In this document: positions 46,253 to 58,791 of the stretch, one piece after another
How the letters are laid out: each line of letters starts with the position of its first letter
How positions within the stretch are numbered: position 1 is the stretch's first letter
Source of the DNA: Candidatus Methanoperedentaceae archaeon GB37
GTDB taxonomy: Archaea > Halobacteriota > Methanosarcinia > Methanosarcinales > EX4572-44
Direction: 5' to 3'
DNA length: 64,000 bases
Assembly: GCA_905171695.1 (NCBI GenBank)
Contig: LR991653.1
Location: 462,258-526,257 of the forward strand
Notes under the pieces: generated by a model
What the model saw: only the letters and a program-made list of their open reading frames with translations
The model's database searches: none
Told to the model about the DNA's origin: nothing
Program-made: the position numbers and the translations under genes

Positions 46253-47683
46253 TCAGCATTGGTTCAGTCTCTGTTCTATCTTCTTACAGTATCTGTGATC
46301 AAGACTGGGGATCTTCTTGGCAAGTTCTGAGAACTCTTTCTTTAGGAGGATGCTCAGGCCGAGGGGGATCGTGTAGTTGTGGTTGCCAACGAGTCGCACT
46401 CTCTCGTCTTCGTTGAGGTCTTGCATGAATATCTCTGCGTTTCTGTAAGAGCGGGTGAATCTGTGCATCCAGAGATTGACGTAATCGCTTTTATACTTCC
46501 ATAGGAATGGATAGGTTGGTCTGTATGACTCCCAGTCGGATCGTTTGTCAGGTCGGATGTGGTCGTAGTATCGCTCTCTCACACTGGTTCCTGGGAACGG
46601 GATTAATACATCCCAGTTTATGAAACGGCGTCTCTCATCGTCTGCGTGAGAGATCTTGAGGAGTTCGAACATCTCTGTGAAATCACTTATCAATTCCCTC
46701 TTCTCGATTGTGGGGTGTGGTGTGATGTAGCTGAGTGTGAGGCTCCCTTCAAACTCTTTTATGGTTCTTTTTATCCCGTCTATCTCTCTCCTGTGAGAGT
46801 CTTCGTCTCTGATTCTTCCGTGATATCTTCTTCCGATCTTCTTGCGTCCTGAGTATGTGCTTGATTCAACTCCGATGAAGAGGTCTCTGTAGTTGTTTCG
46901 TTGAATAAAGTCAGATACTTCGTTGTAATTGGTTGATAGGAAGAATGGATCGAGTAAACATTCTTTTCTGATCTCTCTTGCATCACATGTCTCATAGACG
47001 TAGTCCAGCATCTTGATTGAGGATTTTGTTATGTGTGAGTCGTCACAGAAGACGAGGGACTCTGGGTTTAACTCGTTCATCTCTTCGATCAATGATTCTT
47101 TCTTTCGCAGGTGGTATCCGTCTTTTACGCATGCGCAGTAGTCACAGAAGTTTGAGCATCCAACAGAGGATAAGAGATAGACTCGATCCTTCTTTTTATA
47201 TGGGTCGATCTTACGGTATGGTGTTGTATCCTGAACGATGGGTTCTGTTCTCTCTGTTTTATTACGTCTGATCTCGCCATTTTTTCGGTATGTTATGTTC
47301 GGGATGTCATGGAGTTCTTCTTTCTCTTCTGCGATCGTTGCTATCTCTCTGCCGTATCCTTCGTTTACGAAATCGATGGATGGGGATTCGTTTAAACATG
47401 AGATTGGGTCTCCGCTTGCATGTGCTCCACCGAGTATGATCGGTACATCGCACGCTTCTTTGACTTTCTCTGCAAACTCTTTGACGTAGGGGATCTCTGG
47501 AGTGTAGGATGTGATGCCGATCAGATCATAGGAGTGCAGGTTCTCCGGGTCTTTCTTCCAGATACTTTCGATCTCAACCTCACAATCTACCTGATCCATC
47601 AGATAGGTTCCAAGGTAGACCAGTGCAAGTGAAGAATAGTTTTCATAGTACTCGGATGGATTCAACAGGAGGATCTTATTCAT
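46253..47683 (-). CDS. B12-binding radical SAM protein
   Basis: 476 residues. The N-terminal half resembles a cobalamin-binding Rossmann domain (LIGITSYTPEIPYVKEFAEK, VPIILGGAHASGDP). The radical SAM core starts near 165 with LLSSVGCSNFCDYCACVK (C-x3-C-x2-C) and continues with SLVFCDDSHITKSSIKMLDY and FIGVESSTYSGRKKIGRR. Such enzymes methylate unreactive carbons or phosphinates, among other reactions; the substrate here is unknown. Methylations of this kind occur on Mcr residues in methanogens, but nothing in this sequence assigns it to that. It is followed upstream by a small acidic protein gene (gap 6 bp). Confidence 0.82.
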   Translation of the reverse strand: MNKILLLNPSEYYENYSSLALVYLGTYLMDQVDCEVEIESIWKKDPENLHSYDLIGITSYTPEIPYVKEFAEKVKEACDVPIILGGAHASGDPISCLNESPSIDFVNEGYGREIATIAEEKEELHDIPNITYRKNGEIRRNKTERTEPIVQDTTPYRKIDPYKKKDRVYLLSSVGCSNFCDYCACVKDGYHLRKKESLIEEMNELNPESLVFCDDSHITKSSIKMLDYVYETCDAREIRKECLLDPFFLSTNYNEVSDFIQRNNYRDLFIGVESSTYSGRKKIGRRYHGRIRDEDSHRREIDGIKRTIKEFEGSLTLSYITPHPTIEKRELISDFTEMFELLKISHADDERRRFINWDVLIPFPGTSVRERYYDHIRPDKRSDWESYRPTYPFLWKYKSDYVNLWMHRFTRSYRNAEIFMQDLNEDERVRLVGNHNYTIPLGLSILLKKEFSELAKKIPSLDHRYCKKIEQRLNQC

Positions 47684-48052: not shown

Positions 48053-48337
48053 TTATCCACCCATCCCTCTCAACTTCTTACCCTCTGGCGACACCATGAC
48101 TGGTGGAGCAGGCCATATGACCGTTGCTTTCTTCCCGATCCTTCGCAGGTACTCGTGCACTGCTGCACACGAGATTCCCAGTATATATGAAACCTCGAGC
48201 GCATACATCGTTCCATTCGTGAGTTTCTCTACGTACTTATCCCTGTCCTCTGCAGTTTCAAACTTCTTCACCTGCTCGTCGAGTTTCTTCTTCGCTTCTT
48301 CCTGATCCTCTGCATAAATTTCTGCCATCTTGATCAC
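48053..48337 (-). CDS. Small protein of the AOR/DUF2193 unit
   Basis: About 91-94 residues. A charged helical first half (MAEIYAEDQEEAKKKLDEQV) leads to LEVSYILGISCAAVHEYLRRI, which looks like a helix-turn-helix or a packing helix pair, then KKATVIWPAPPVMVSPEGKK. Not recognised. Its start overlaps the stop of the DUF2193-like gene, implying a fixed ratio with that protein. Confidence 0.65.
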   Translation of the reverse strand: MIKMAEIYAEDQEEAKKKLDEQVKKFETAEDRDKYVEKLTNGTMYALEVSYILGISCAAVHEYLRRIGKKATVIWPAPPVMVSPEGKKLRGMGG

Positions 48338-49917
48338 TCTTCCCTCGGTTCAGGTTCAATTCTCGTGGTTGACGATACTGCAAGCTTCAGGTCGTTTGCA
48401 CGGCACCACCTGCATTTCGCTGGCAGCCATTCTGCTGTGGCACATCTCTTGCAGAGCTGTATCGGTGCCATTGCCTTATCTGGATTGAGCGCTGCCTGGT
48501 TGCAGAGCGCATTGATCGATGGCGCCTCAGGTGAGAGCATGCATGGCTGGTCTATAAATCTGAAGAGTGCAGCTGTTCGGGCTGTAATCGCACAGTACGG
48601 ATAGGCATACCACTGTGGATCGTTCAGGTATGTGTTGTTTCTGATGGGCCAGAGATCTACTGGAACACCCTGTACCTTTCCACCGTATCCATGTGGTGGA
48701 TCCCTGATGACTCTCTCGCCCTTTGCGACGAAGTCAAGCCAGTCGTTTATGTGCAGCTCGGCAACCATCGGTCTGTCGTATGGATGTGTTAAGACCCAGT
48801 TGTTGAATCGGTGTTCCATGAGATCAACGAACATGTCGGCAGTGAATCCATCCCAGTTCAGTATCTCTGCCATTGCTGCTCCCTGCGCACCAGTTACGAG
48901 ACCTGTTAGGGCAAATGGAACCTTTGGAACGCCCATTGCATATCCTCTTCTTGTTGTGCTCGCACCGACCTGTGAGACAGCGTCGAGTATGTTCATGCAC
49001 ATCTCGTCCTTACAGATCTCGTAGTAGGATGGACCCAGGTGGTGACCCATGTCTCCAACATGTGTTGGAAGCATCGGTATATTCGCTATGTGAACGCCTG
49101 CATCATAAGCGGCCTTCACAACTGGCGTCATTCGCTTCTCATAGAGCTCGTAATACCTGTGCCGATTGAATGATGAGAAACCGAATGTGCCCATGATCTT
49201 CTTCATGAACATCGATGGCTGCGCCCATATCCATTCCAGGTACCTCTGTTCCTGCTCGATTGCGGTCTGAACGTTCCTGCACCGCTGCACTATTCGTGTG
49301 AACCTGTCGCCAAAGACGTAGATCGTGTTGAGTCCCCAAGATTTTGCAGCCATTATCGCTTCCTTGTACTTCCTGTCAATAGGTGTTCTATCAAGTATCA
49401 GCACATCTATTGCAAAGTTGCTGCCTGGCAGTGCTGCAAAGTCCTTTGACGAGACGATTCCATAGAATCCACTGTGGAGCCTCATCGCCTCAATCCCGAT
49501 CAGGTCCTCGGACTCTCTTATCGTTCTGCAGAACTCGTCTATTGCATCCTTAAAGTCACGATCGAGCTTGTAGCATATATCAAGCACTATCGGTGTCTGC
49601 ATCCACTCGAGGAATGCTGTATCCAGTGCATTCACAGTCTTGGTGAGAGAATCGATGATCTCATAGTGGTTCAGATATGATTCTCTCCAGAGGTCCAGGC
49701 ATTCCTTGGATTGATCTGGGTGAAGCGTCACCTCTTTGATCCGCTGATAGAATGGCTCACAGTGCTTCCACAGGAATGGCTCGTATCTGTGTTCTCTTAC
49801 TATGTCAACACATGTTTGCTGTGCTGCAATTCCTTCGTTCATCGTCTTCTCGACGACGTCTGCGTACTGGCATTCGTCGTACGCGTGAGTTGTTCCTGAC
49901 ATTTGAACCGTTGACAT
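48334..49917 (-). CDS. DUF2193-like archaeal protein
   Basis: A soluble 527-residue protein. From memory it resembles the methanogen-associated DUF2193 family, function unknown; this needs a profile search. Visible features: a helical N-terminal half with WKHCEPFYQRIKEVTLHPDQ, conserved-looking HSGFYGIVSSKDFAALPGSN, HIANIPMLPTHVGDMGHHLG, GASTTRRGYAMGVPKVPFAL, and a zinc-ribbon-like C-terminus CKRCATAEWLPAKCRWC. It starts 5 bp after the AOR stop and overlaps the next small gene, so AOR, this protein and the small protein form one tight unit. A role with the AOR, as redox partner or maturation factor, is inferred from position only. Confidence 0.7.
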   Translation of the reverse strand: MSTVQMSGTTHAYDECQYADVVEKTMNEGIAAQQTCVDIVREHRYEPFLWKHCEPFYQRIKEVTLHPDQSKECLDLWRESYLNHYEIIDSLTKTVNALDTAFLEWMQTPIVLDICYKLDRDFKDAIDEFCRTIRESEDLIGIEAMRLHSGFYGIVSSKDFAALPGSNFAIDVLILDRTPIDRKYKEAIMAAKSWGLNTIYVFGDRFTRIVQRCRNVQTAIEQEQRYLEWIWAQPSMFMKKIMGTFGFSSFNRHRYYELYEKRMTPVVKAAYDAGVHIANIPMLPTHVGDMGHHLGPSYYEICKDEMCMNILDAVSQVGASTTRRGYAMGVPKVPFALTGLVTGAQGAAMAEILNWDGFTADMFVDLMEHRFNNWVLTHPYDRPMVAELHINDWLDFVAKGERVIRDPPHGYGGKVQGVPVDLWPIRNNTYLNDPQWYAYPYCAITARTAALFRFIDQPCMLSPEAPSINALCNQAALNPDKAMAPIQLCKRCATAEWLPAKCRWCRANDLKLAVSSTTRIEPEPREE

Positions 49918-49922
49918 TTATA

Positions 49923-51782
49923 TCACACTCCCAGTTTGGTTCTCATATCATCCAGATCCAGGTACTTTGTCAGCCATGGCTCTGGAACACCGTCTTTACT
50001 CCATCCGCGCTCCTCGTAGAACATCTTCTTCGCCTTGTTAAGCCTACTTATCGTTCCCTTGCTTCCACCATAAGGAGTCTGCTCTGTTGTGAATCTCTTT
50101 GGCAATGCGTCATCGTCTGCCGTGAATCCACTCGCCAGGTTCCAGAGTCGTTCAGCATTGAAGACTCTCTCCTCAGACTGGATGAGTTCACGTGTTTCCA
50201 TCTCTATTCCAGTTGCTGTCGAGAATAATTTAGCATTATCCTCAACTCCAACAGGTGTTAGCACTAGGAAGAGGCAGAGTACAGCAGAATCGTAGAATAC
50301 GCTCTCGTGCTGCATTCCGATTGTGAACGTGATCTTGTCACGGTTCAGTACGGTTCTCTCAAGGAGTTCCTTTGGTGATATCTGTGTTCCGAGTGTGTTG
50401 CACCCGACCATGTATGATTTCATGTGGTCAGCACCGCGTGGACTGGTTGCATAGCCGAGGTCCACACCTGCCATCGTTCGTGGGTCATAGGCTGGAAGTT
50501 CGGTTCCTTTGATATGCATTGCATAATCTGCCGTCTCTGGGTACTTCTCTGCGCATTTCTTAACGCCCATCATGAGGTCTGCGCCAACGCCCTCGCCTTT
50601 TCCCATCTCTTCCAATACTCTGAGGATTCCTTCTCCGTCTCCCCAGGTTATTCCAAAGTCATGTGCTCCTTTCACGGTTGATTCCATTGCATATCCAAGT
50701 ATGTTTCCACCCGATATCCCGTCCATTCCATATTTAGCACAGAGGTCTCCTGCCTTTGCGACAACGTACGGATCATAATTGCCAAGGTTAGCTCCAAATG
50801 ACCATGTTAACTCGTACTCTGCCTGTGGTAGGAATTCTCCGTTTATGTACAGTTTCCTGTGGCACCCGATCGGGCATGCATAACAGGATACTTTTCCCCA
50901 GTTGAACTCGTTCCAGAATCTCTCTCCACTGATCTTCTGACAGTCTTCGTAGGATAGGTTTCCAGTCTCTGAGAAGTTCTTTATTCCGAGTGTTCCGTGC
51001 ATATTCTCAACGTGCATCAGAACGATCGTTCCTCTTGTCTGCAGGTATTCGCCAGTTGTTGGTTTCTCCAGTACGAGGGAGGTTATCTTCCGATTGATCT
51101 CTTTGAACTCGTCCTTGTTGGCAATCCCTATCTTCTGCTTTCCATTCACCACAACCGCCTTCAGGTTCTTTGAACCCCAGACAGCGCCTGCCCCGGTTCT
51201 ACCGGCAAAGCTGTCCTTGGCATGAGTAATGACTGCTATCGGTGAACAGTTCTCGCCAGCAGGACCAATGCATCCGACACAGGCATTCTTTCCATGTTTT
51301 GCCATGAGGATATCATCAGTCTCGTATGTTGTCTTTCCCCAGAGGTCGCTTGCATCAAGTATCTCCTGAGTCTCGTCTGTTATGTGTAGGTAACATGGGC
51401 TATCTGCCTTGCCATCGATGATGATCGCATCGTACCCTGCTCTCTTCACAAGCATCCCAAATCGTGCTCCTGCAATGCACGCCGATGTCGTTCCAGAGAG
51501 TGGCGATATGAAGCAAACGGCGAATCTTCCTGACGTTGCAGCTGGTGTTCCTGTCAAGGGTCCTGGCATTATGACGAACCTGTTCTCTGGTGAGAGAGCA
51601 AACTCTCTTGCCTCCTCCGGGGTGCTATAGGGTGGCTTGCCTATGTGGTCCCAGATAAGCTTCTGTCCAAGCCCTCTGCCACCGATGTACTGCTTCCACA
51701 GTTTCTCATCAATTCCAGCTTCCTCGGTTATCTTTCCCTTCGTAAGGTCTACATGAAGGGTTTTTCCCATTATAGAACTCAT
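49923..51782 (-). CDS. Tungsten aldehyde:ferredoxin oxidoreductase family
   Basis: A 619-residue AOR that would interconvert aldehydes and carboxylic acids with ferredoxin at a tungsto-bispterin centre. GKTLHVDLTKGKITEEAG and YIGGRGLGQKLIWDHI open the pterin domain. The 4Fe-4S cysteines are in CYACPIGCHRKL (C-x2-C-x3-C, near residue 300), and the fourth is probably in DSAVLCLFLVLTP near 490. AGRTGAGAVWGSKNLKAVVV is the classic family block. A TATA-like GTATAAAAT at 51815-51824 (minus strand) in the 52-bp gap after mer could give it its own promoter. The mer neighbourhood suggests feeding two-carbon or longer aldehydes into, or out of, the C1 route. Confidence 0.9.
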   Translation of the reverse strand: MSSIMGKTLHVDLTKGKITEEAGIDEKLWKQYIGGRGLGQKLIWDHIGKPPYSTPEEAREFALSPENRFVIMPGPLTGTPAATSGRFAVCFISPLSGTTSACIAGARFGMLVKRAGYDAIIIDGKADSPCYLHITDETQEILDASDLWGKTTYETDDILMAKHGKNACVGCIGPAGENCSPIAVITHAKDSFAGRTGAGAVWGSKNLKAVVVNGKQKIGIANKDEFKEINRKITSLVLEKPTTGEYLQTRGTIVLMHVENMHGTLGIKNFSETGNLSYEDCQKISGERFWNEFNWGKVSCYACPIGCHRKLYINGEFLPQAEYELTWSFGANLGNYDPYVVAKAGDLCAKYGMDGISGGNILGYAMESTVKGAHDFGITWGDGEGILRVLEEMGKGEGVGADLMMGVKKCAEKYPETADYAMHIKGTELPAYDPRTMAGVDLGYATSPRGADHMKSYMVGCNTLGTQISPKELLERTVLNRDKITFTIGMQHESVFYDSAVLCLFLVLTPVGVEDNAKLFSTATGIEMETRELIQSEERVFNAERLWNLASGFTADDDALPKRFTTEQTPYGGSKGTISRLNKAKKMFYEERGWSKDGVPEPWLTKYLDLDDMRTKLGV

Positions 51783-51834
51783 CTATCTGTCTCCTCCATT
51801 TATGGTACCTATTGTATTTTATACTACTATTCAA

Positions 51835-52830
51835 CTACTTCACAAAGTGTGGTATCACTTCCTTGCCGATCAACTCGATCGACTTGGACTTCTCCGGCCC
51901 AAGTGGCGAGCCTGTTATCATCTGTGTCACTCCTGCTTTGAAGAGTGAATCGATCTGTTCTATGCACTCGTCTGGGGATCCGCATATCGAGAAGCAATCG
52001 AGCATCTCTGGTGTCACTGCTTTTATAGCTGCACCGAAGCTCTCTTTGAAGCCGTCTCGAACCTTGTTCACGTCCTCTATTGGTATGCCGTGTTTCTCAA
52101 AGACAGTGTCTGGTGAGCCTGCCACGATGAAAGCTGTGACCGGTTTTGCGGTCTTCTCTGCTTCTTCCTTTGTGTCTGCGATCGAGAAACTTGTGTACGC
52201 TGCAACATCGAAATCGTTGAAGTTCTTGCCAGCACCCTCACATCCTTCTTTCAGGAGTTTTACTGCTGTCTCAAAGTCTCGTGGGTGAGATCCATTAACA
52301 AGTGCACCTTCCGCAATCTCTCCTGCGAGTTTGAGCATCTTTGGTCCCTGTGCTCCTATGTATACTGGTATCTCTGCTCCCTTCTGGTAGTCCAGTTTTG
52401 CCGATTTTATCTTGCAAACCTTTCCATCGTAGCTGATCTTCTTGCCGGTCAATAGTTTTCGTACTATCTCAACCGTCTCTCTCACCATCGAGAGAGGTTT
52501 CACCCATTCGATTCCAAGTCCGTCAAAGGTAACCTTGTCGCCAGGACCTATCCCGAATATGGCACGACCGCCTGATACCTCGTTCACCGTTGCGATCGCT
52601 GATGCGAGCTGTGGTGGCGTGCGGGTATAGGGGTTGGTCACACCTGGTCCAATATTGATCTTGCTTGTGTTGGCGCCGATATGGGTCAGAACGGCATATG
52701 CGTCCCTGTTGTTGTAGTGGTCTGTTATCCATGCATACTTGAGGCCGTTCTCCTCTGAGAACTTTACGAGCTCTGCCAGTTTCTCTGCAGGTTCGTTTGC
52801 TAAAAACTCTATTCCAAAGCTTATCTCCAC
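51835..52830 (-). CDS. mer: F420-dependent methylene-H4MPT reductase
   Basis: Mer interconverts methylene- and methyl-tetrahydromethanopterin with F420H2. The start is GTG 52830 behind GGAGG. Luciferase-like TIM-barrel signatures: ISFGIEFLANEPAEKLAEL, YAWITDHYNNRDAYAVLTHI, INIGPGVTNPYTRTPPQLAS and AIFGIGPGDKVTFDGLGIEW. 331 residues, standard. Its presence argues against lineages reported to replace it with MetF, such as ANME-1. A TATA-like ACTATATATGG near 52897-52907 in the 83-bp gap after mtrH suggests its own promoter besides readthrough from mtr. Confidence 0.95.
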   Translation of the reverse strand: MEISFGIEFLANEPAEKLAELVKFSEENGLKYAWITDHYNNRDAYAVLTHIGANTSKINIGPGVTNPYTRTPPQLASAIATVNEVSGGRAIFGIGPGDKVTFDGLGIEWVKPLSMVRETVEIVRKLLTGKKISYDGKVCKIKSAKLDYQKGAEIPVYIGAQGPKMLKLAGEIAEGALVNGSHPRDFETAVKLLKEGCEGAGKNFNDFDVAAYTSFSIADTKEEAEKTAKPVTAFIVAGSPDTVFEKHGIPIEDVNKVRDGFKESFGAAIKAVTPEMLDCFSICGSPDECIEQIDSLFKAGVTQMITGSPLGPEKSKSIELIGKEVIPHFVK

Positions 52831-52913: not shown

Positions 52914-53840
52914 TTACGCGAGCTTATTTATCGGATGGTCTTCTGGAATCTCTATACCAAAGTCCTGTATCGAGTCTGCTGCAACCATATCTGCCTCTGC
53001 CGCAGAGGGCGCTGCAAGCTTTGCGTTCTCGATTGGTCCGATGAATAGAGAGTTTGCACCAGATAGTATGCCGATGGTGTTTGCAGATATATCACAGACG
53101 TGGCGTACCAGTGGGTCAGGGTGCTTCTTCAACCATGCCCATGACGAGGGCACGTTGTGAGCACCAACACCTGTTGCAAAACCGTACCTGGACTTCACAA
53201 CAGCCAGCAGCCTGAACGATGCTCCCGCGCCATTCCCGACAGGCTGAACACCAGGATCGTACAGGATCTTATCACCAAATCCGCACTTCTTGGCAATTGG
53301 GATCAATCCCTCATCTATGAAATCGCCACCGTCTTCAAGGAGTTGTATGCGTGCGTGAACCGATGGGTCCTGCATGTTGAAGCCGAGTATGACAACGCCC
53401 TCAATCTCTGCCTCTGTCAGGGCTCTGATCTCCTCTTCTTCGATCATCATGTTGATCGCATTGTACAACACACGATCACCGTAGCCTACCTCTGTTGTGT
53501 GCTTGAGCCCAACGTAGCGGGCTTTTATCTCTGCTGAGTCGATGATGAATGGTCTATCCGTGTGTTCTGATACGAAGTCAAGGCACTTTGGCATCAACTC
53601 TTCGGTCACACCTACCACCTGGAATATGCAGGGGTTGCCTGTCTCATCGCACACGGTCTCCACTTCGTTTATCAGCGCTTCTGCCTTTGCAGCATCGAAC
53701 GTGTTGTTCTTGTCATCAACGATCGCGTGTCCATCATAGAATATGGTGGGGATGATCACAGTAGGATTCTCACCTATATGACCGCCCACTTTCACATTCC
53801 CGATCTCCAATATCTTCTGCTCTCTTGCAAACTTATACAT
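52914..53840 (-). CDS. mtrH: Methyltransferase subunit MtrH
   Basis: MtrH moves the methyl group between H4MPT and the corrinoid on MtrA; it is the soluble methyl-H4MPT-binding subunit. KFAREQKILEIGNVKVGGHI, FYDGHAIVDDKNNTFDAAKA, DSAEIKARYVGLKHTTEVGY and the final SLFIGPIENAKLAAPSAAEA are recognisable. 308 residues. It is last in the mtr operon and is separated from mtrG by 12 bp with AGGAGG before the ATG. Confidence 0.95.
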   Translation of the reverse strand: MYKFAREQKILEIGNVKVGGHIGENPTVIIPTIFYDGHAIVDDKNNTFDAAKAEALINEVETVCDETGNPCIFQVVGVTEELMPKCLDFVSEHTDRPFIIDSAEIKARYVGLKHTTEVGYGDRVLYNAINMMIEEEEIRALTEAEIEGVVILGFNMQDPSVHARIQLLEDGGDFIDEGLIPIAKKCGFGDKILYDPGVQPVGNGAGASFRLLAVVKSRYGFATGVGAHNVPSSWAWLKKHPDPLVRHVCDISANTIGILSGANSLFIGPIENAKLAAPSAAEADMVAADSIQDFGIEIPEDHPINKLA

Positions 53841-53852
53841 AATTTTTCCTCC

Positions 53853-54020
53853 TCACAAGCCTAATACGAGTATTATAAGGAGCGCTACAACTATTCCATA
53901 GAGCACTCCAATCCATCTTCCAATCATAATCCCCCTCTGCTGAAAGATCTCAGCAGAGGCGAACTCTACCTGCTCCTCGACTCTGTCAAGCCGATGCATC
54001 ATATCTTCGTACATTCCCAT
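53853..54020 (-). CDS. mtrG: Methyltransferase subunit MtrG
   Basis: Translated by hand, 55 residues: MGMYEDMMHRLDRVEEQVEF at the start, then a C-terminal membrane helix IGVLYGIVVALLIILVLGL. A short amphipathic helix plus a single membrane segment is the MtrG pattern. The ATG at 54020 has GAGGTG upstream. Order (F before G, then H) is that of Methanosarcina. Confidence 0.9.
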   Translation of the reverse strand: MGMYEDMMHRLDRVEEQVEFASAEIFQQRGIMIGRWIGVLYGIVVALLIILVLGL

Positions 54021-54031
54021 ATCTTTTCACC

Positions 54032-54232
54032 TCACAGCAGACCGAGCATCACCAGCACAAAGGCTATCACAAACCCGAGAAGGAAGTACAATCGTGTTGT
54101 GAAGATGCCTGAAAACATTCGCTGGTCTTTTCCAATGATCGCCTCTCGTCGCTCAAGCTCAGTTATCATACGGTTGCACTCCTGCATACGTGGAGTGCCG
54201 AGCATCGGTATCATCCGACTTTGATCGCTCAT
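54032..54232 (-). CDS. mtrF: Methyltransferase subunit MtrF
   Basis: 66 residues. A soluble helical part (MIPMLGTPRMQECNRMITEL) precedes one C-terminal membrane helix (LYFLLGFVIAFVLVMLGLL). Identified by position between mtrA and mtrG and by size. Its ATG overlaps the mtrA stop by 4 bp. Confidence 0.88.
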   Translation of the reverse strand: MSDQSRMIPMLGTPRMQECNRMITELERREAIIGKDQRMFSGIFTTRLYFLLGFVIAFVLVMLGLL

Positions 54233-54969
54233 CCTAACAACCTCCTGAGCCCAAAGATAACTATCGTCAGGATCAAACCAAGGACAAAACCCTGATACAG
54301 TCCGCCGACAAGTCCGGCTGTCACCTTCTGAAGCTTGCCCAGGTCCTTGTACTCCTGTTCGATATGTCTTATTCTCGATTCGATGGACACTGAATCTCCT
54401 GTGTGCCCAAGGACGCCTGTCATCTCTTCTTCCATAGCGCCGCCGAGTTTGACTAACATCGGCTCTTCTTCGTAGGGACCTATTGGCTCCAGACGATCTA
54501 TAGCGCTCTCTATCTGACTCTCGTCTTCCACGTTTATCAGGTCTACGAGTTCAACGATCTGATTCCTGAACCGATCAATAGCCTCTCTCGGAAGATTGGT
54601 GACGTATGGGATCGCTCCAGGTGCATCTATGACGCGTCCTGTATCGTCTACACCATTCTCGTGAAATGCCTTCCAGCACTTCCCTGTTATGTGGCCATGC
54701 ACCTCTGCGCCGCAGACCACGAGGTATCGGATGTGGGAGTTTGATATGATGTTTGCAACCACCTTCTCGGTTCCGATGTTCTCGGTCTTGCAATCACCGC
54801 AGATCGCAGATCTTTTGAGGAGTCGTGCATTGTCAAGCTCGCTTGCGAGGGTGACTATTGCCACCGGTTTGGTGGGATCACCTGCAAGGTATGAGCCTGC
54901 AAGAGGGGGCCAACCCTCCACCACGTATGATTCGATCTCCTTTTTCTCTTTCTTCTCTTCGTCTCCCAT
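54229..54969 (-). CDS. mtrA: Corrinoid-binding methyltransferase subunit MtrA
   Basis: MtrA carries the corrinoid that accepts the methyl group. 246 residues: WPPLAGSYLAGDPTKPVAIV, AICGDCKTENIGTEKVVANI, and the cobamide-ligand region VCGAEVHGHITG with His91 as the probable axial ligand. A linker and a C-terminal membrane helix (YQGFVLGLILTIVIFGLRRL) anchor it, as in methanogens. mtrB lies 3 bp upstream. Confidence 0.96.
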   Translation of the reverse strand: MGDEEKKEKKEIESYVVEGWPPLAGSYLAGDPTKPVAIVTLASELDNARLLKRSAICGDCKTENIGTEKVVANIISNSHIRYLVVCGAEVHGHITGKCWKAFHENGVDDTGRVIDAPGAIPYVTNLPREAIDRFRNQIVELVDLINVEDESQIESAIDRLEPIGPYEEEPMLVKLGGAMEEEMTGVLGHTGDSVSIESRIRHIEQEYKDLGKLQKVTAGLVGGLYQGFVLGLILTIVIFGLRRLLG

Positions 54970-54972
54970 TCT

Positions 54973-55278
54973 TCACATCCCTCCTTTGAGTGCGAGCGCT
55001 ACAAGTGCTGCCAAGAGCATCCCAAAGATGAAGCCGTAGGCAAGATTTGCGATCCTCCCAGCATTTCGATATATGCCCTCGCGGTTCGGGTAGGAGACCA
55101 TCGGTATCGTCGTCGGGTCAAGTGAGTCGAAGAGATCTTTCCCTATCCTCGCAAGCCTCTCAACGCTCTCCATCATCAAGGCGAGATTGGTGGTGATGAG
55201 ATGTTCGTCCATCTCACCCAAAAGACCTGTTTCAGGGTTAAGTGCCACATTCTCTTCAAGGTCTATCAATACGTACAT
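54973..55278 (-). CDS. mtrB: Methyltransferase subunit MtrB
   Basis: 101 residues. Soluble N-terminal part MYVLIDLEENVALNPETGLL, then SVERLARIGKDLFDSLDP, and a membrane helix near the C-terminus (ANLAYGFIFGMLLAALVALA). Size and gene order identify it. It contributes to the membrane assembly of the Na+-pumping complex. Confidence 0.92.
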   Translation of the reverse strand: MYVLIDLEENVALNPETGLLGEMDEHLITTNLALMMESVERLARIGKDLFDSLDPTTIPMVSYPNREGIYRNAGRIANLAYGFIFGMLLAALVALALKGGM

Positions 55279-55299: not shown

Positions 55300-56115
55300 T
55301 CAGTGTGGTACCCCTGCAGGATACCCTGTCCAGACGATCTCATAGGTATCCTCCTTGACCTTCTTCCACCATATCTTGACAAAGACCGCAAATCCTATGA
55401 GGCTTATGATCAACATCCCGAGTGCTGGAATGAATGAGGTGGTATTTGGAAGCAGGACTCCTATAATCCCGAAGAGTGTTGTTATAAGCGATGCTTCGCA
55501 ACATGCGAGTCGGAGGGTTCTTGACTGGTTTTCACCTGCTCCAAGACTGCCATTGTATGGATGGAGTATCACAAGAGCTGTTCCTATGTATATCACAGGG
55601 AATGTATAGTAGAGTTTGGTTGTAGCAACTCCTCCTGATGAAAGGACTTCAAGAACGATGAGGATGAAGATCGCTGACGAGCCTGTGATGATGAAGCTCT
55701 GCTGAGCCTGCTCTGGTATCTTCATCTTTATGATCCGTTCAGCACAGAGCCCAACAACGTAGCCTATGATGGTTCCAGCGATTATCACTATGAACGGACT
55801 GTAGAGATTGAATATCTGTGAACTCATGAAGATCGTTGCAAAGACAACGGTTGCGCCCACGGCTGTGCCCCAGTATCCTATCGATGATGTGCCTGTGCCA
55901 AGCCCGTATCTGCAGAGGTGCTCAACGCCGCCTGCGCCTGCAACGATAGCGGGCCAGGCAAGGATTACGCTGATGAAGGCAAGATTTGGGTTGGCTAAGA
56001 GTATGTAATAGCCGATGATCCCTGTTATCACTGCGACGATGTACAGCTTGATATTCGGTATCTCTTTTGCTTCCACTTCTTCTGCTGCTGGTGGTTCAGG
56101 TGCTTGTGTCGTCAT
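55300..56115 (-). CDS. mtrC: Membrane subunit MtrC
   Basis: A 271-residue polytopic protein with about seven membrane spans (LYIVAVITGIIGYYILLANP, FISVILAWPAIVAGAGGVEH, YWGTAVGATVVFATIFM and others). GGVEHLCRYGLGTGTSSIGYWGTAVGA is typical MtrC. With MtrD and MtrE it forms the sodium channel part of the complex. In oxidative metabolism the complex would run in reverse and spend the Na+ gradient. Confidence 0.94.
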   Translation of the reverse strand: MTTQAPEPPAAEEVEAKEIPNIKLYIVAVITGIIGYYILLANPNLAFISVILAWPAIVAGAGGVEHLCRYGLGTGTSSIGYWGTAVGATVVFATIFMSSQIFNLYSPFIVIIAGTIIGYVVGLCAERIIKMKIPEQAQQSFIITGSSAIFILIVLEVLSSGGVATTKLYYTFPVIYIGTALVILHPYNGSLGAGENQSRTLRLACCEASLITTLFGIIGVLLPNTTSFIPALGMLIISLIGFAVFVKIWWKKVKEDTYEIVWTGYPAGVPH

Positions 56116-56116
56116 C

Positions 56117-56812
56117 TTATATCACCACCACTGCTGCGTAGATGAAGACCCCTGTGAATACGCTTGCCACGATACATGAGATGAGTGTTTTTGGCAGCTT
56201 CTTCATCTTCGGGTCGGTCATGCCCTCGGTCTTTCCAACGAGCACGTATGCCGGAAGCACGCAGTTTACGAGAAAGACACCTGCTGCAACCATGCCTGCA
56301 ATGGTTATCGCTGTAGCAGTGGCTATAGCCGTAACTTCGGTCAGCATTCCATAGGTCGATGCGAAGACGAGTGAGCCGCCAGCGCCACCGAGGAGTGCAC
56401 CTATTATACCGCTCAGTGCTGTTGTTGTGGGCATCGAGTGCCCGTCTGTCCCCGGGGACATGAACGGCTTCTGTCTCCACCCTGTGATCGGGTCCTTATC
56501 ATACGTGCCTGCCACAGGCGCAACACCTGTTCCAAAGGCGCATATAGCGTTTGCAAGAAGCATCGTGCAGATTATCATCAGCGCTGAGCCGAGTGCACCA
56601 GATGCCACTGTTATCGGGAGCCCCAGCTTTATACTGTAGCCTGCAGCGTAGAGTCCTGCAAGTCCACAGCCTGCTGATAGCATGGAGGGACCTGTTGCGA
56701 TCCCTGTCGATGCTGACATGGCACCAACTGCGCTTGCGGGTATGAAGTGAACACAGATTCCCACGATCACGCCGCCGATTATTATACCGATCATTGCTGC
56801 TATTGGGTCCAT
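56117..56812 (-). CDS. mtrD: Membrane subunit MtrD
   Basis: 231 residues, very Gly/Ala-rich, with about six membrane segments. AAMIGIIIGGVIVGICVHFI, MSASTGIATGPSMLSAGCGL and IMCTMLLANAICAFGTGVAP are family blocks. The gene is separated by single bases from mtrE and mtrC. Part of the ion-translocating core. Confidence 0.94.
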   Translation of the reverse strand: MDPIAAMIGIIIGGVIVGICVHFIPASAVGAMSASTGIATGPSMLSAGCGLAGLYAAGYSIKLGLPITVASGALGSALMIICTMLLANAICAFGTGVAPVAGTYDKDPITGWRQKPFMSPGTDGHSMPTTTALSGIIGALLGGAGGSLVFASTYGMLTEVTAIATATAITIAGMVAAGVFLVNCVLPAYVLVGKTEGMTDPKMKKLPKTLISCIVASVFTGVFIYAAVVVI

Positions 56813-56814
56813 AA

Positions 56815-57729
56815 TTACAGATCCTCCTGACCCGGATAGGGTCCATAACTATCCCGTGTGAACTTCTCAAGCCACACAAGGAAGATGAATAGTATTGCCA
56901 CAACTATTGCTTCAAGAATCACCGATGTCCACTCTCCTGCAAATGTGAAGAGCCGTGTCCAGCCATCGAGAAATATGATCAAACCGAAGGCGAAGGCTGT
57001 TATGGTACCGCCGAGCCTCATGCAGAAGTAGGGCGTGTCAACAGAGTTTCGAAAACCGTACTCGCCCTTGAGGTCAATATCTCCCATCTTCGATATGGGA
57101 ATGCCTGAGCCAAAGATGTGATGCTGGTAGAGGCGCTCTGCACCATACTGGATATCACCCGTGCCTGATGCAATGCTCCCGAGACTTATACCAAAGAGCA
57201 ACGCCAAGAGCGGCGGTGCAAATGGGTTTCCAAGAAGTCCTGATGTGACGAAGGCAAGGAGCGTTAAGAGAAGCGCTGTCAGGAATGCGAGTCCCATGCT
57301 GTAGGGAAGTGGTGTTAAGAGCGCATCCCAGTAGAGCGGCTGCTTAAACGGACTGAAGCTCGCAATTCTTGATAGATGAGCGAACACTCCGAAACAGCCC
57401 TGCACAAGGCATACGATAGCAGCTCCGACGACTGCTGCAAAGAATATGGCATAATACTGCCCTATCCCCATATCTGCAAATCGCCACGAGAGGAGGAGTG
57501 CTATCGTACACGCAGATGCTGCCCATAACCCATTCTGCGGTGGCTCTCCAGCTATTGCTTTGTCATAATACCTGATAATATGTCCTATCTGCGGTGCCAG
57601 CTGGACCTGCGAGTTTGGATTGCTTGCAGAACCCGCGTCCGATTCTGCGTCTTCAATAATACCTGCTATGAAAGCAATCGCACCCGCAAGTCCAACTCCA
57701 ATCATTAAAGTCAGTGTTACAGGTTCCAT
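56815..57729 (-). CDS. mtrE: Membrane subunit MtrE (first gene of mtr operon)
   Basis: 304 residues. MEPVTLTLMIGVGLAGAIAF opens a helix with conserved Gly residues; PNSQVQLAPQIGHIIRYYDK and QYGAERLYQHHIFGSGIPIS are diagnostic. It is the largest ion-translocating subunit and probably houses the Asp that handles Na+. TATATAAC at 57751-57760 (minus strand) lies about 27 nt from the ATG, so the mRNA may be leaderless or nearly so. Confidence 0.95.
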   Translation of the reverse strand: MEPVTLTLMIGVGLAGAIAFIAGIIEDAESDAGSASNPNSQVQLAPQIGHIIRYYDKAIAGEPPQNGLWAASACTIALLLSWRFADMGIGQYYAIFFAAVVGAAIVCLVQGCFGVFAHLSRIASFSPFKQPLYWDALLTPLPYSMGLAFLTALLLTLLAFVTSGLLGNPFAPPLLALLFGISLGSIASGTGDIQYGAERLYQHHIFGSGIPISKMGDIDLKGEYGFRNSVDTPYFCMRLGGTITAFAFGLIIFLDGWTRLFTFAGEWTSVILEAIVVAILFIFLVWLEKFTRDSYGPYPGQEDL

Positions 57730-57840: not shown

Positions 57841-58791
57841 ATGTTGAGTGTTAACGAAAAGGCGATGGAGATCGCAGAGGAGATGCTGGACTGGGCAGAA
57901 GAGCTTAAGATAGAGAGTGTAAAACTCAAGAACGATGCAAGGGTCATCGACTGCGGTGTCAACACGACCGGGAGTTATGAAGCCGGGTTGATGTTCACAG
58001 ATATATGTATGGGTGGGCTCAACACGAGCAGTATCAGTGTCCATAAGATAGGTGACGTTCCACTCTCGTTCATCGACATAACGACCGATCACCCGTCGAT
58101 CGCCTGCCTTGGTGCTCAGAAGGCTGGATGGTCGATCAGCGTGGACAAGTACTTTGCAATGGGCTCAGGCCCTGCGCGTGCACTTGCACTGAAGCCCAAG
58201 AATACGTACGACCGCATTGGCTACACTGACAGCTCTGAATGCGCGGTGATCGCACTTGAATCTGCCCAGCTCCCAGACGAGAAGGTGATGGAGTTCATTG
58301 CAAAGGAGTGCGGGGTTGATGTTGAGAACACCGTTGCACTCGTTGCCCCAACCGCCTCGATCGTGGGATCTGTGCAGGTCTCGGGGAGGGTTGTTGAGAC
58401 CGGTGTGTACAAGTTGAACGAGCTTGGATACGATACAACTAGGATCATCTGCGGGAGTGGAACAGCTCCGATCGCACCTGTCGTGAAGGATGATACCAAG
58501 GCGATGGGCGCAACCAACGATAGTGTGATATATTACGGTTCTGTGAATCTGACAGTGAGAGGCTTTGATGAAGAGATCTTCAAGAAGGTTCCATCAACAA
58601 CATCAGCCGACTACGGCAAACCGTTCTTCAAGACGTTCAAGGCAGCAGGTTATGATTTCTACAAGATCGATGTGAACATCTTTGCGCCAGCCGAGATTAC
58701 AGTGAACGATCTTGAGACCGGCAAGACGTATCACAGTGGTTATTTGAATGGTGAAGTGATTCTCGAGTCTTACGAGATTACAAGCCTGTGA
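57841..58791 (+). CDS. mch: Methenyl-H4MPT cyclohydrolase
   Basis: Mch interconverts formyl- and methenyl-H4MPT. 316 residues: [60 protein letters not shown], and [20 protein letters not shown] with the active-site region. Standard length. It is divergent from mtr. A T-rich stretch with runs of 5 and 7-8 T at 58834-58862 is a good terminator. Confidence 0.96.

Follow-up and report, generated by a model that had tools for sequence, protein, structure and literature searches.

In a 64,000-nucleotide stretch of the genome of Candidatus Methanoperedentaceae archaeon GB37 (contig LR991653.1, positions 462,258 to 526,257; hereafter the window), the gene for a DUF2193 protein lies between genes for an aldehyde:ferredoxin oxidoreductase (AOR) and a 91-aa protein, downstream of mer and an mtr operon. 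We tentatively propose that DUF2193 is a tetrahydromethanopterin (H4MPT)-dependent aldehyde-handling enzyme and a non-homologous analogue of Fae, a reading that we regard as quite possible, if not yet probable. The case is carried by the gene order, the co-inheritance of AOR and DUF2193, the linkage of DUF2193 to H4MPT genes, the complementary distribution of Fae and DUF2193 (in a small genome set) and the intact AOR site. From these we infer the reaction, its direction and the choice between a C1 and a C2 substrate in the window organism's family, GoM-Arc1, as we do every catalytic step assigned to DUF2193.

DUF2193 in H4MPT operons

A preliminary description of this DNA had called the 527-residue protein DUF2193-like. 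A profile search bears this out: PF09959 matches over its full length (profile positions 2-496 of 498, 516 bits against a cut-off of 25, E 9.5e-155). It is the only family matched, and there is no sequence match to Fae (PF08714). The tree of the family splits with 100/100 support into two clades, the window protein belonging to clade II.

The context of clade I points to the formaldehyde entry of the H4MPT pathway. Clade I members occur in Bacillota (Moorella, Desulfosporosinus, Formimonas, Gracilibacter, Halanaerobium and others), next to genes for a MIP channel, a GHMP kinase, a flavoprotein, DUF6513, DUF447, an Mpt_N dehydrogenase, an ATP-grasp protein, FhcB/A, FTR, GXGXG and Mch. Where the contig suffices, these loci hold the whole methylene-H4MPT to formate pathway, and no Mer was found at any bacterial DUF2193 locus. 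A similar neighbourhood, with dehydrogenase, FhcB/A-type, FTR and Mch-type genes, surrounds DUF2193 in two Thermoproteota (L093 and L131). Fae is absent from all 11 bacterial DUF2193 genomes tested and from both Thermoproteota with fhc-linked DUF2193. FTR was found in 8 of the 11 bacterial genomes, the other 3 being metagenome-assembled genomes (MAGs), and in 5/5 of the non-euryarchaeal archaea that were tested. Within one class of 83 genomes, DUF2193 is present in 5, FTR in 6 and both in 4 (Fisher p 4e-5, uncorrected for phylogeny); copy numbers agree (2/2 in G060 and in G068), and the two genes are about 10-12 kb apart on shared contigs. G119, which has FTR and lacks DUF2193, does encode Fae. 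One gene missing and another added is what non-orthologous replacement would produce, and DUF2193 may well do the job of Fae; the clade I genome context in this small genome set supports a place at the formaldehyde entry of H4MPT operons but does not by itself establish the reaction. An earlier assignment of the bacterial neighbours as methanol methyltransferases was wrong, since Pfam identifies them as H4MPT genes. A sigma-54 activator containing a PAS domain, perhaps a sensor of C1 compounds, is also encoded ahead of many bacterial DUF2193 genes (L098 6737-8686, L119 and others).

The operon position beside the GHMP kinase, flavoprotein, DUF6513 and ATP-grasp genes could instead mean that DUF2193 synthesizes or modifies H4MPT. 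We consider this very unlikely, and the distribution of the family speaks against a biosynthesis gene: about half of the same-order relatives of the window organism lack DUF2193, though Mtr and Mer are present in the ones tested, and in G119 the pathway and Fae occur without DUF2193.

Gene order of the unit

The window genome (G000) is one contig of 1.92 Mb, 94% complete, with a divergent-type MCR; matching loci are titled Ca. Ethanoperedens, Ca. Argoarchaeum and ex4572_44. The GoM-Arc1 comparison set comprised six Ethanoperedens/Argoarchaeum genomes, G000 to G003 among them, of which G002 and G003 are incomplete. On the minus strand the order is mtrEDCBAFGH-mer-AOR-DUF2193-91 aa. The mtr operon is complete (mtrEDCBA, F, G and H), with F and G fitting small open reading frames (ORFs) within 53853-54214. 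The features are as follows.

48053-48328, minus strand: 91-aa protein with an ATG start, GoM-Arc1-specific (tblastn, only six GoM-Arc1 genomes; no family above cut-off)
48334-49917, minus strand: DUF2193 protein, 527 aa, clade II, C-terminal CxxC-x9-CxxC (PF09959 516 bits, alignment, tree, AlphaFold2 model)
49923-51782, minus strand: predicted tungsten-type AOR, 619 aa (PF02730 and PF01314, PDB relatives, kept residues, AOR tree)
51835-52830, minus strand: Mer2, divergent F420-dependent methylene-H4MPT reductase (TIGR03555 472 bits; Mer2 clade 100/100; single copy)
52914-53840, minus strand: MtrH of the Mtr2 complex (synteny, blast)
53853-54020, minus strand: MtrG, small membrane subunit (position, hydrophobic C-terminus)
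54032-54214, minus strand: MtrF, small membrane subunit (position, hydrophobic C-terminus)
54229-54969, minus strand: MtrA of Mtr2 (ORF, synteny)
54973-55278, minus strand: MtrB of Mtr2 (ORF, synteny)
55300-56115, minus strand: MtrC of Mtr2 (ORF, synteny)
56117-56812, minus strand: MtrD of Mtr2 (ORF, synteny)
56815-57729, minus strand: MtrE of Mtr2, the only MtrE in the genome (PF04206 290 bits)
57841-58791, plus strand: mch, for methenyl-H4MPT cyclohydrolase, transcribed away from mtrE (named from about 41% identity with a Pfam-confirmed Mch)

The three genes described downstream of mer exist as a unit, and mer-AOR-DUF2193-small protein is kept in 6/6 of the GoM-Arc1 genomes searched, with 75-95% protein identity among them for AOR, DUF2193 and the small protein. 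Because the order recurs in six genomes, it is not due to chance; no plasmid copy of the unit was found. The preliminary description had the genes overlapping. In the ORF list, mer and AOR are separated by 52 bp, and AOR and DUF2193 abut with 5 bp between them; the small ORF follows DUF2193 after about 5 bp, or overlaps its stop briefly if translation starts at a GTG there, so that only this last junction may overlap. The placement beside mer and mtr was correct, with the amendment that both are of a divergent second type.

Clade II members with enough contig all lie in mtrH or mer clusters, in Methanosarcinales and Archaeoglobi. In MAGs of Geoglobus/Archaeoglobus without MCR (L078 2980-5269, L079, L084), mtrH is directly followed by DUF2193, a putative H4MPT methyltransferase pair with no mer beside it. 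About half of clade II carries an AOR; where present, its gene directly precedes that of DUF2193, also in L062, where mer lies at another site, and in L075, where mer comes after the pair. One branch without AOR includes ANME-2c, ANME-2d and one ANME-2a-family genus. The hub of the cluster is DUF2193, not AOR.

The 91-aa protein has no family above cut-off in profile searches, and tblastn over all collected loci confined it to the six GoM-Arc1 genomes. It had been put forward as an electron partner of the AOR; with a single cysteine and no Fe-S motif it is unlikely to carry electrons, and we rejected this role. An apparent shortening of the protein in G001 was withdrawn, as it is an assembly gap of Ns. 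Downstream of the unit, a B12-binding radical SAM protein (window 46253-47683, minus strand) has no equivalog match; it stands directly behind the unit also in G001, with 80% identity. In several ANME-2 lineages, ORFs of 64-210 aa downstream of clade II DUF2193 have a 'DWGDFDQFDFKAPWM' motif in common (L061 9511-9705, L065 8030-8263, L071 10505-11137, L072 10528-10881, L076 8454-8945) and resemble the C-terminal region of a radical SAM protein of the B12 type, which suggests that a radical SAM gene was once present behind ANME-2 DUF2193 and was repeatedly lost.

DUF2193 fold and conserved residues

An alignment of 46 sequences with 36-89% identity to the window protein has about 55 invariant residues, many of them polar (H84, E104, D159, K192, H292, H293, R370, H389, D392, D395). 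The C-terminal tail has the pattern CxxC-x9-CxxC, with C or H as third ligand across the family, and this CxxC...(C/H)xxC arrangement would suit zinc. The AlphaFold2 model built from the same sequences (pLDDT 89.6, pTM 0.89) is almost wholly helical. Fold and invariant residues fit an enzyme in this model and do not name its reaction.

A non-catalytic role was also considered, in which DUF2193 is an accessory H4MPT protein (a carrier, a chaperone or a channelling scaffold for Mer2/Mtr2 and for MtdB/Mch) and the AOR is an independent oxidoreductase that hitch-hikes with it. The robust trait common to both clades is linkage to H4MPT genes rather than a reaction, and half of clade II can do without the AOR. 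Nevertheless, the invariant polar residues look like an active site, and DUF2193 is the single family added exactly where the standard operon misses Fae, so that we judge an accessory role unlikely.

The AOR and its pairing with DUF2193

The AOR contains both family domains (AFOR_N 227 bits, AFOR_C 333 bits), and its relatives in the PDB are AOR-type. Across 40 AORs, the 4Fe-4S cysteines C300/C303/C307/C503 and residues E322, E324 and H453 are invariant, and all are kept here. The active site is intact, and tungsten, ferredoxin use and aldehyde oxidation are predicted. The AORs of mer loci form one clade (82/96), while most other AORs of the order fall outside it. The branching order of this clade largely matches that of DUF2193, so joint inheritance of the pair is probable.

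The preliminary description suggested that DUF2193 may be an electron-transfer or assembly partner of the AOR. In its fullest form, this idea would make DUF2193 a partner for electron transfer, assembly or substrate hand-over within a three-gene unit specific to alkane oxidation. The fixed position of the AOR directly before DUF2193, the agreement of the two trees and the divergence of the GoM-Arc1 pair, as great as that of a different class, are in its favor. Most DUF2193 proteins, however, have no AOR nearby, the ANME-2 branch above among them, so that the family as a dedicated AOR partner is not supported, and most other AORs of the order lie outside the DUF2193-linked clade. Seven carrier genomes have canonical MCR only (191-223 bits), divergent MCR being found only in GoM-Arc1 and JdFR-42; the pair is therefore not specific to multicarbon alkane oxidizers, and the restriction to alkanotrophs that had been suggested was rejected on MCR type. 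We consider a dedicated partnership improbable. The step around an aldehyde that was also suggested is plausible. DUF2193 is indeed widespread without AOR and without mer or mtr, as clade I, a distribution that the preliminary description had named as refuting its idea, but this does not hold for the mer/mtrH-linked clade II.

The GoM-Arc1 AOR and DUF2193 have only 41-48% and 51-60% identity to the others, as far diverged as the Archaeoglobi member, whereas Mer and MtrH of GoM-Arc1 are without matching divergence. Either a shift in function or a lateral transfer to JdFR-42 could account for this.

The window genome encodes further AORs. One (L163 6568-9401) has a coupled gene for an F420 oxidoreductase of the FrhB/FdhB type that contains Fe-S motifs, which suggests aldehyde oxidation linked to F420. 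A third (L164 6843-8561) is oriented divergently to the mcr genes that encode the ethane-type MCR. A fourth, AOR-like protein (L165 6245-8164) is very divergent (76 bits, long branch) and has counterparts in other GoM-Arc1 genomes.

Mer2 and Mtr2 as sole copies

The window Mer is a true F420-dependent Mer by its TIGR03555 score. In the Mer tree it groups, with 100/100 support, with the cluster-linked Mers and not with those that follow the species tree. MtrE scores 290 bits against PF04206, compared with 393-466 for the Mtr1 type. The divergent clade of Mer (by tree), the low-scoring MtrE (by profile score) and the Mtr-Mer synteny place the window set in the Mtr2-Mer2 module. Two Mers and two MtrEs are usual where a genome carries clade II DUF2193; the five tested genomes without clade II have a single one of each. 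In G000, and likewise in G002 and G003, the second type occurs alone and not as a second copy beside Mtr1/Mer1. It follows that the methyl branch of this ethane oxidizer would depend on Mer2, barring a first copy in the 6% of the genome that is missing. G001 (ex4572_44) has an extra Mer1-type gene on its own branch (C54:1533-2498), either a real gene or a binning error. In Methanoperedens nitroreducens (L260 7466-7702), an internal deletion has cut Mer2 to 78 aa, joining its N- and C-terminal ends; the locus keeps its Mtr2 genes and DUF2193.

These sole copies make a C2 variant attractive for GoM-Arc1, in which ethyl-coenzyme M (CoM) would be converted to ethyl-H4MPT and ethylidene-H4MPT by Mtr2/Mer2, DUF2193 would free acetaldehyde and the AOR would oxidize it, which would bridge the known gap from ethyl-CoM to acetyl-CoA. 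Part of the attraction is JdFR-42, the other sampled carrier of divergent MCR, which has the same AOR-DUF2193-Mer cluster and, in place of an absent MtrE, MtrH and a UROD-family protein. The unusual divergence of the GoM-Arc1 AOR and DUF2193, not followed by Mer and MtrH, also fits. However, the same module occurs in archaea with canonical MCR, Mer2 would have to carry C1 flux too, the divergence pattern could reflect lateral transfer into JdFR-42, G000 has no ACD for acetate activation, and Hahn 2020 argues against free acetate (PMC7175092). The chance of this variant seems rather small.

Proposed pathway

We propose that DUF2193 interconverts free formaldehyde, perhaps also acetaldehyde, plus H4MPT and a methylene (alkylidene)-H4MPT adduct. 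In anaerobic bacteria and Thermoproteota it would load formaldehyde onto H4MPT, with oxidation by MtdB, Mch and Ftr/Fhc. In the Mtr2-Mer2 module, Mtr2 would transfer an alkyl group between CoM and H4MPT and Mer2 would convert alkyl-H4MPT to alkylidene-H4MPT; DUF2193 would then hydrolyze or form the alkylidene adduct, so that aldehyde is freed or captured, and the adjacent AOR would oxidize the aldehyde to the acid with ferredoxin. The whole route may run in reverse. ANME-2 would thereby have a branch from methyl through formaldehyde to formate; GoM-Arc1 would have this branch too, or one leading from ethyl to acetaldehyde.

Besides the operon evidence, we count in favor of this pathway the linkage of clade II to mtrH or mer, seen even in Geoglobus/Archaeoglobus without MCR, and the replacement of MtrE in JdFR-42. 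Several points weigh against it. Formaldehyde and H4MPT condense without an enzyme. About half of clade II lacks the AOR. Methanogen clade I loci, in which DUF2193 adjoins a MIP channel (aquaporin) and often DUF2180, are not set in an H4MPT operon; searches for FTR were negative in 3/11 of the bacterial DUF2193 genomes, and G097 has FTR and neither Fae nor DUF2193. As to mechanism, a Foldseek search of the model against the PDB gave no relative (best E 0.13, TM about 0.12), the matches being chance ones to helical membrane proteins, so that a reaction was not drawn from fold likeness; a PDB sequence search gave nothing significant. Finally, no ACD (PF13607) was found in G000, which would make free acetate a dead end in GoM-Arc1, and CoA ligases are reported as absent from GoM-Arc1 ethane oxidizers in Hahn 2020 (PMC7175092).

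If the proposed role is true, it would supply anaerobes without Fae with the formaldehyde-entry step that their H4MPT pathway lacks. No enzymes are known for the conversion of ethyl-CoM to acetyl-CoA in ethane-oxidizing archaea, nor is there an explanation for the duplication of Mtr2-Mer2 in ANME-2; the hypothesis, testable on proteins from cultured Moorella and Desulfosporosinus, would offer a handle on both. At its most far-reaching, a DUF2193 of new fold replaces Fae in anaerobes and forms with Mtr2, Mer2 and AOR an unrecognized route from alkyl-CoM through aldehyde to acid, the sole alkyl-H4MPT module of ethane oxidizers and maybe their missing ethyl-to-acetyl step, which we consider doubtful.

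Comparison with known systems

In its proposed role, DUF2193 would share with the Fae of bacterial H4MPT operons a place where formaldehyde enters the MtdB-Mch-Fhc pathway, but Fae is a small unrelated domain and DUF2193 a 500-residue all-helical protein. A Fae domain is encoded elsewhere in G000, in a 418-codon open frame (1799755-1800231). Methanosarcina acetivorans has both DUF2193 and Fae. In the open-access literature searched, DUF2193 is treated only in iron/sulfur proteomics work, where a role in iron/sulfur handling was proposed for the Methanococcus voltae protein from its abundance on pyrite (PMC9431491). That protein belongs to the same Pfam family and its C-terminal Cys/His motif was noted; the account, in the parts considered here, makes no link to H4MPT.

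An AOR near mer in ethane oxidizers was already published, with a proposed function in ethyl-to-acetyl conversion (Hahn 2020, PMC7175092). The window AOR is one of three Ethanoperedens/Argoarchaeum AORs placed near methanogenesis genes there. The parts of that paper considered here describe neither the pairing with DUF2193 nor orthologues in ANME-2 and Archaeoglobi with canonical MCR, and AORs are in fact common in ANME-2 relatives.

The Mtr2-Mer2 cluster is likewise published. Chadwick et al. 2022 (PMC9012536) named Mtr2/Mer2 as paralogues in ANME-2 and Argoarchaeum, found ANME paralogues other than Mch2 to be less conserved and less transcribed, and drew an unnamed hypothetical beside Mer2 that, by its position, is very probably DUF2193. 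Their main text mentions no aldehyde oxidoreductases and gives no family or bacterial context for the hypothetical. New with respect to the open-access literature searched are the identification of this hypothetical as DUF2193, its pairing and co-inheritance with the AOR, its association with H4MPT formaldehyde operons of bacteria and crenarchaea, and a distribution complementary to that of Fae. The two clusters are alike in having a divergent Mtr operon upstream of a divergent Mer, in the same taxa; ours differs in that it includes an AOR and in that Mtr2 and Mer2 are the sole copies in the window genome.

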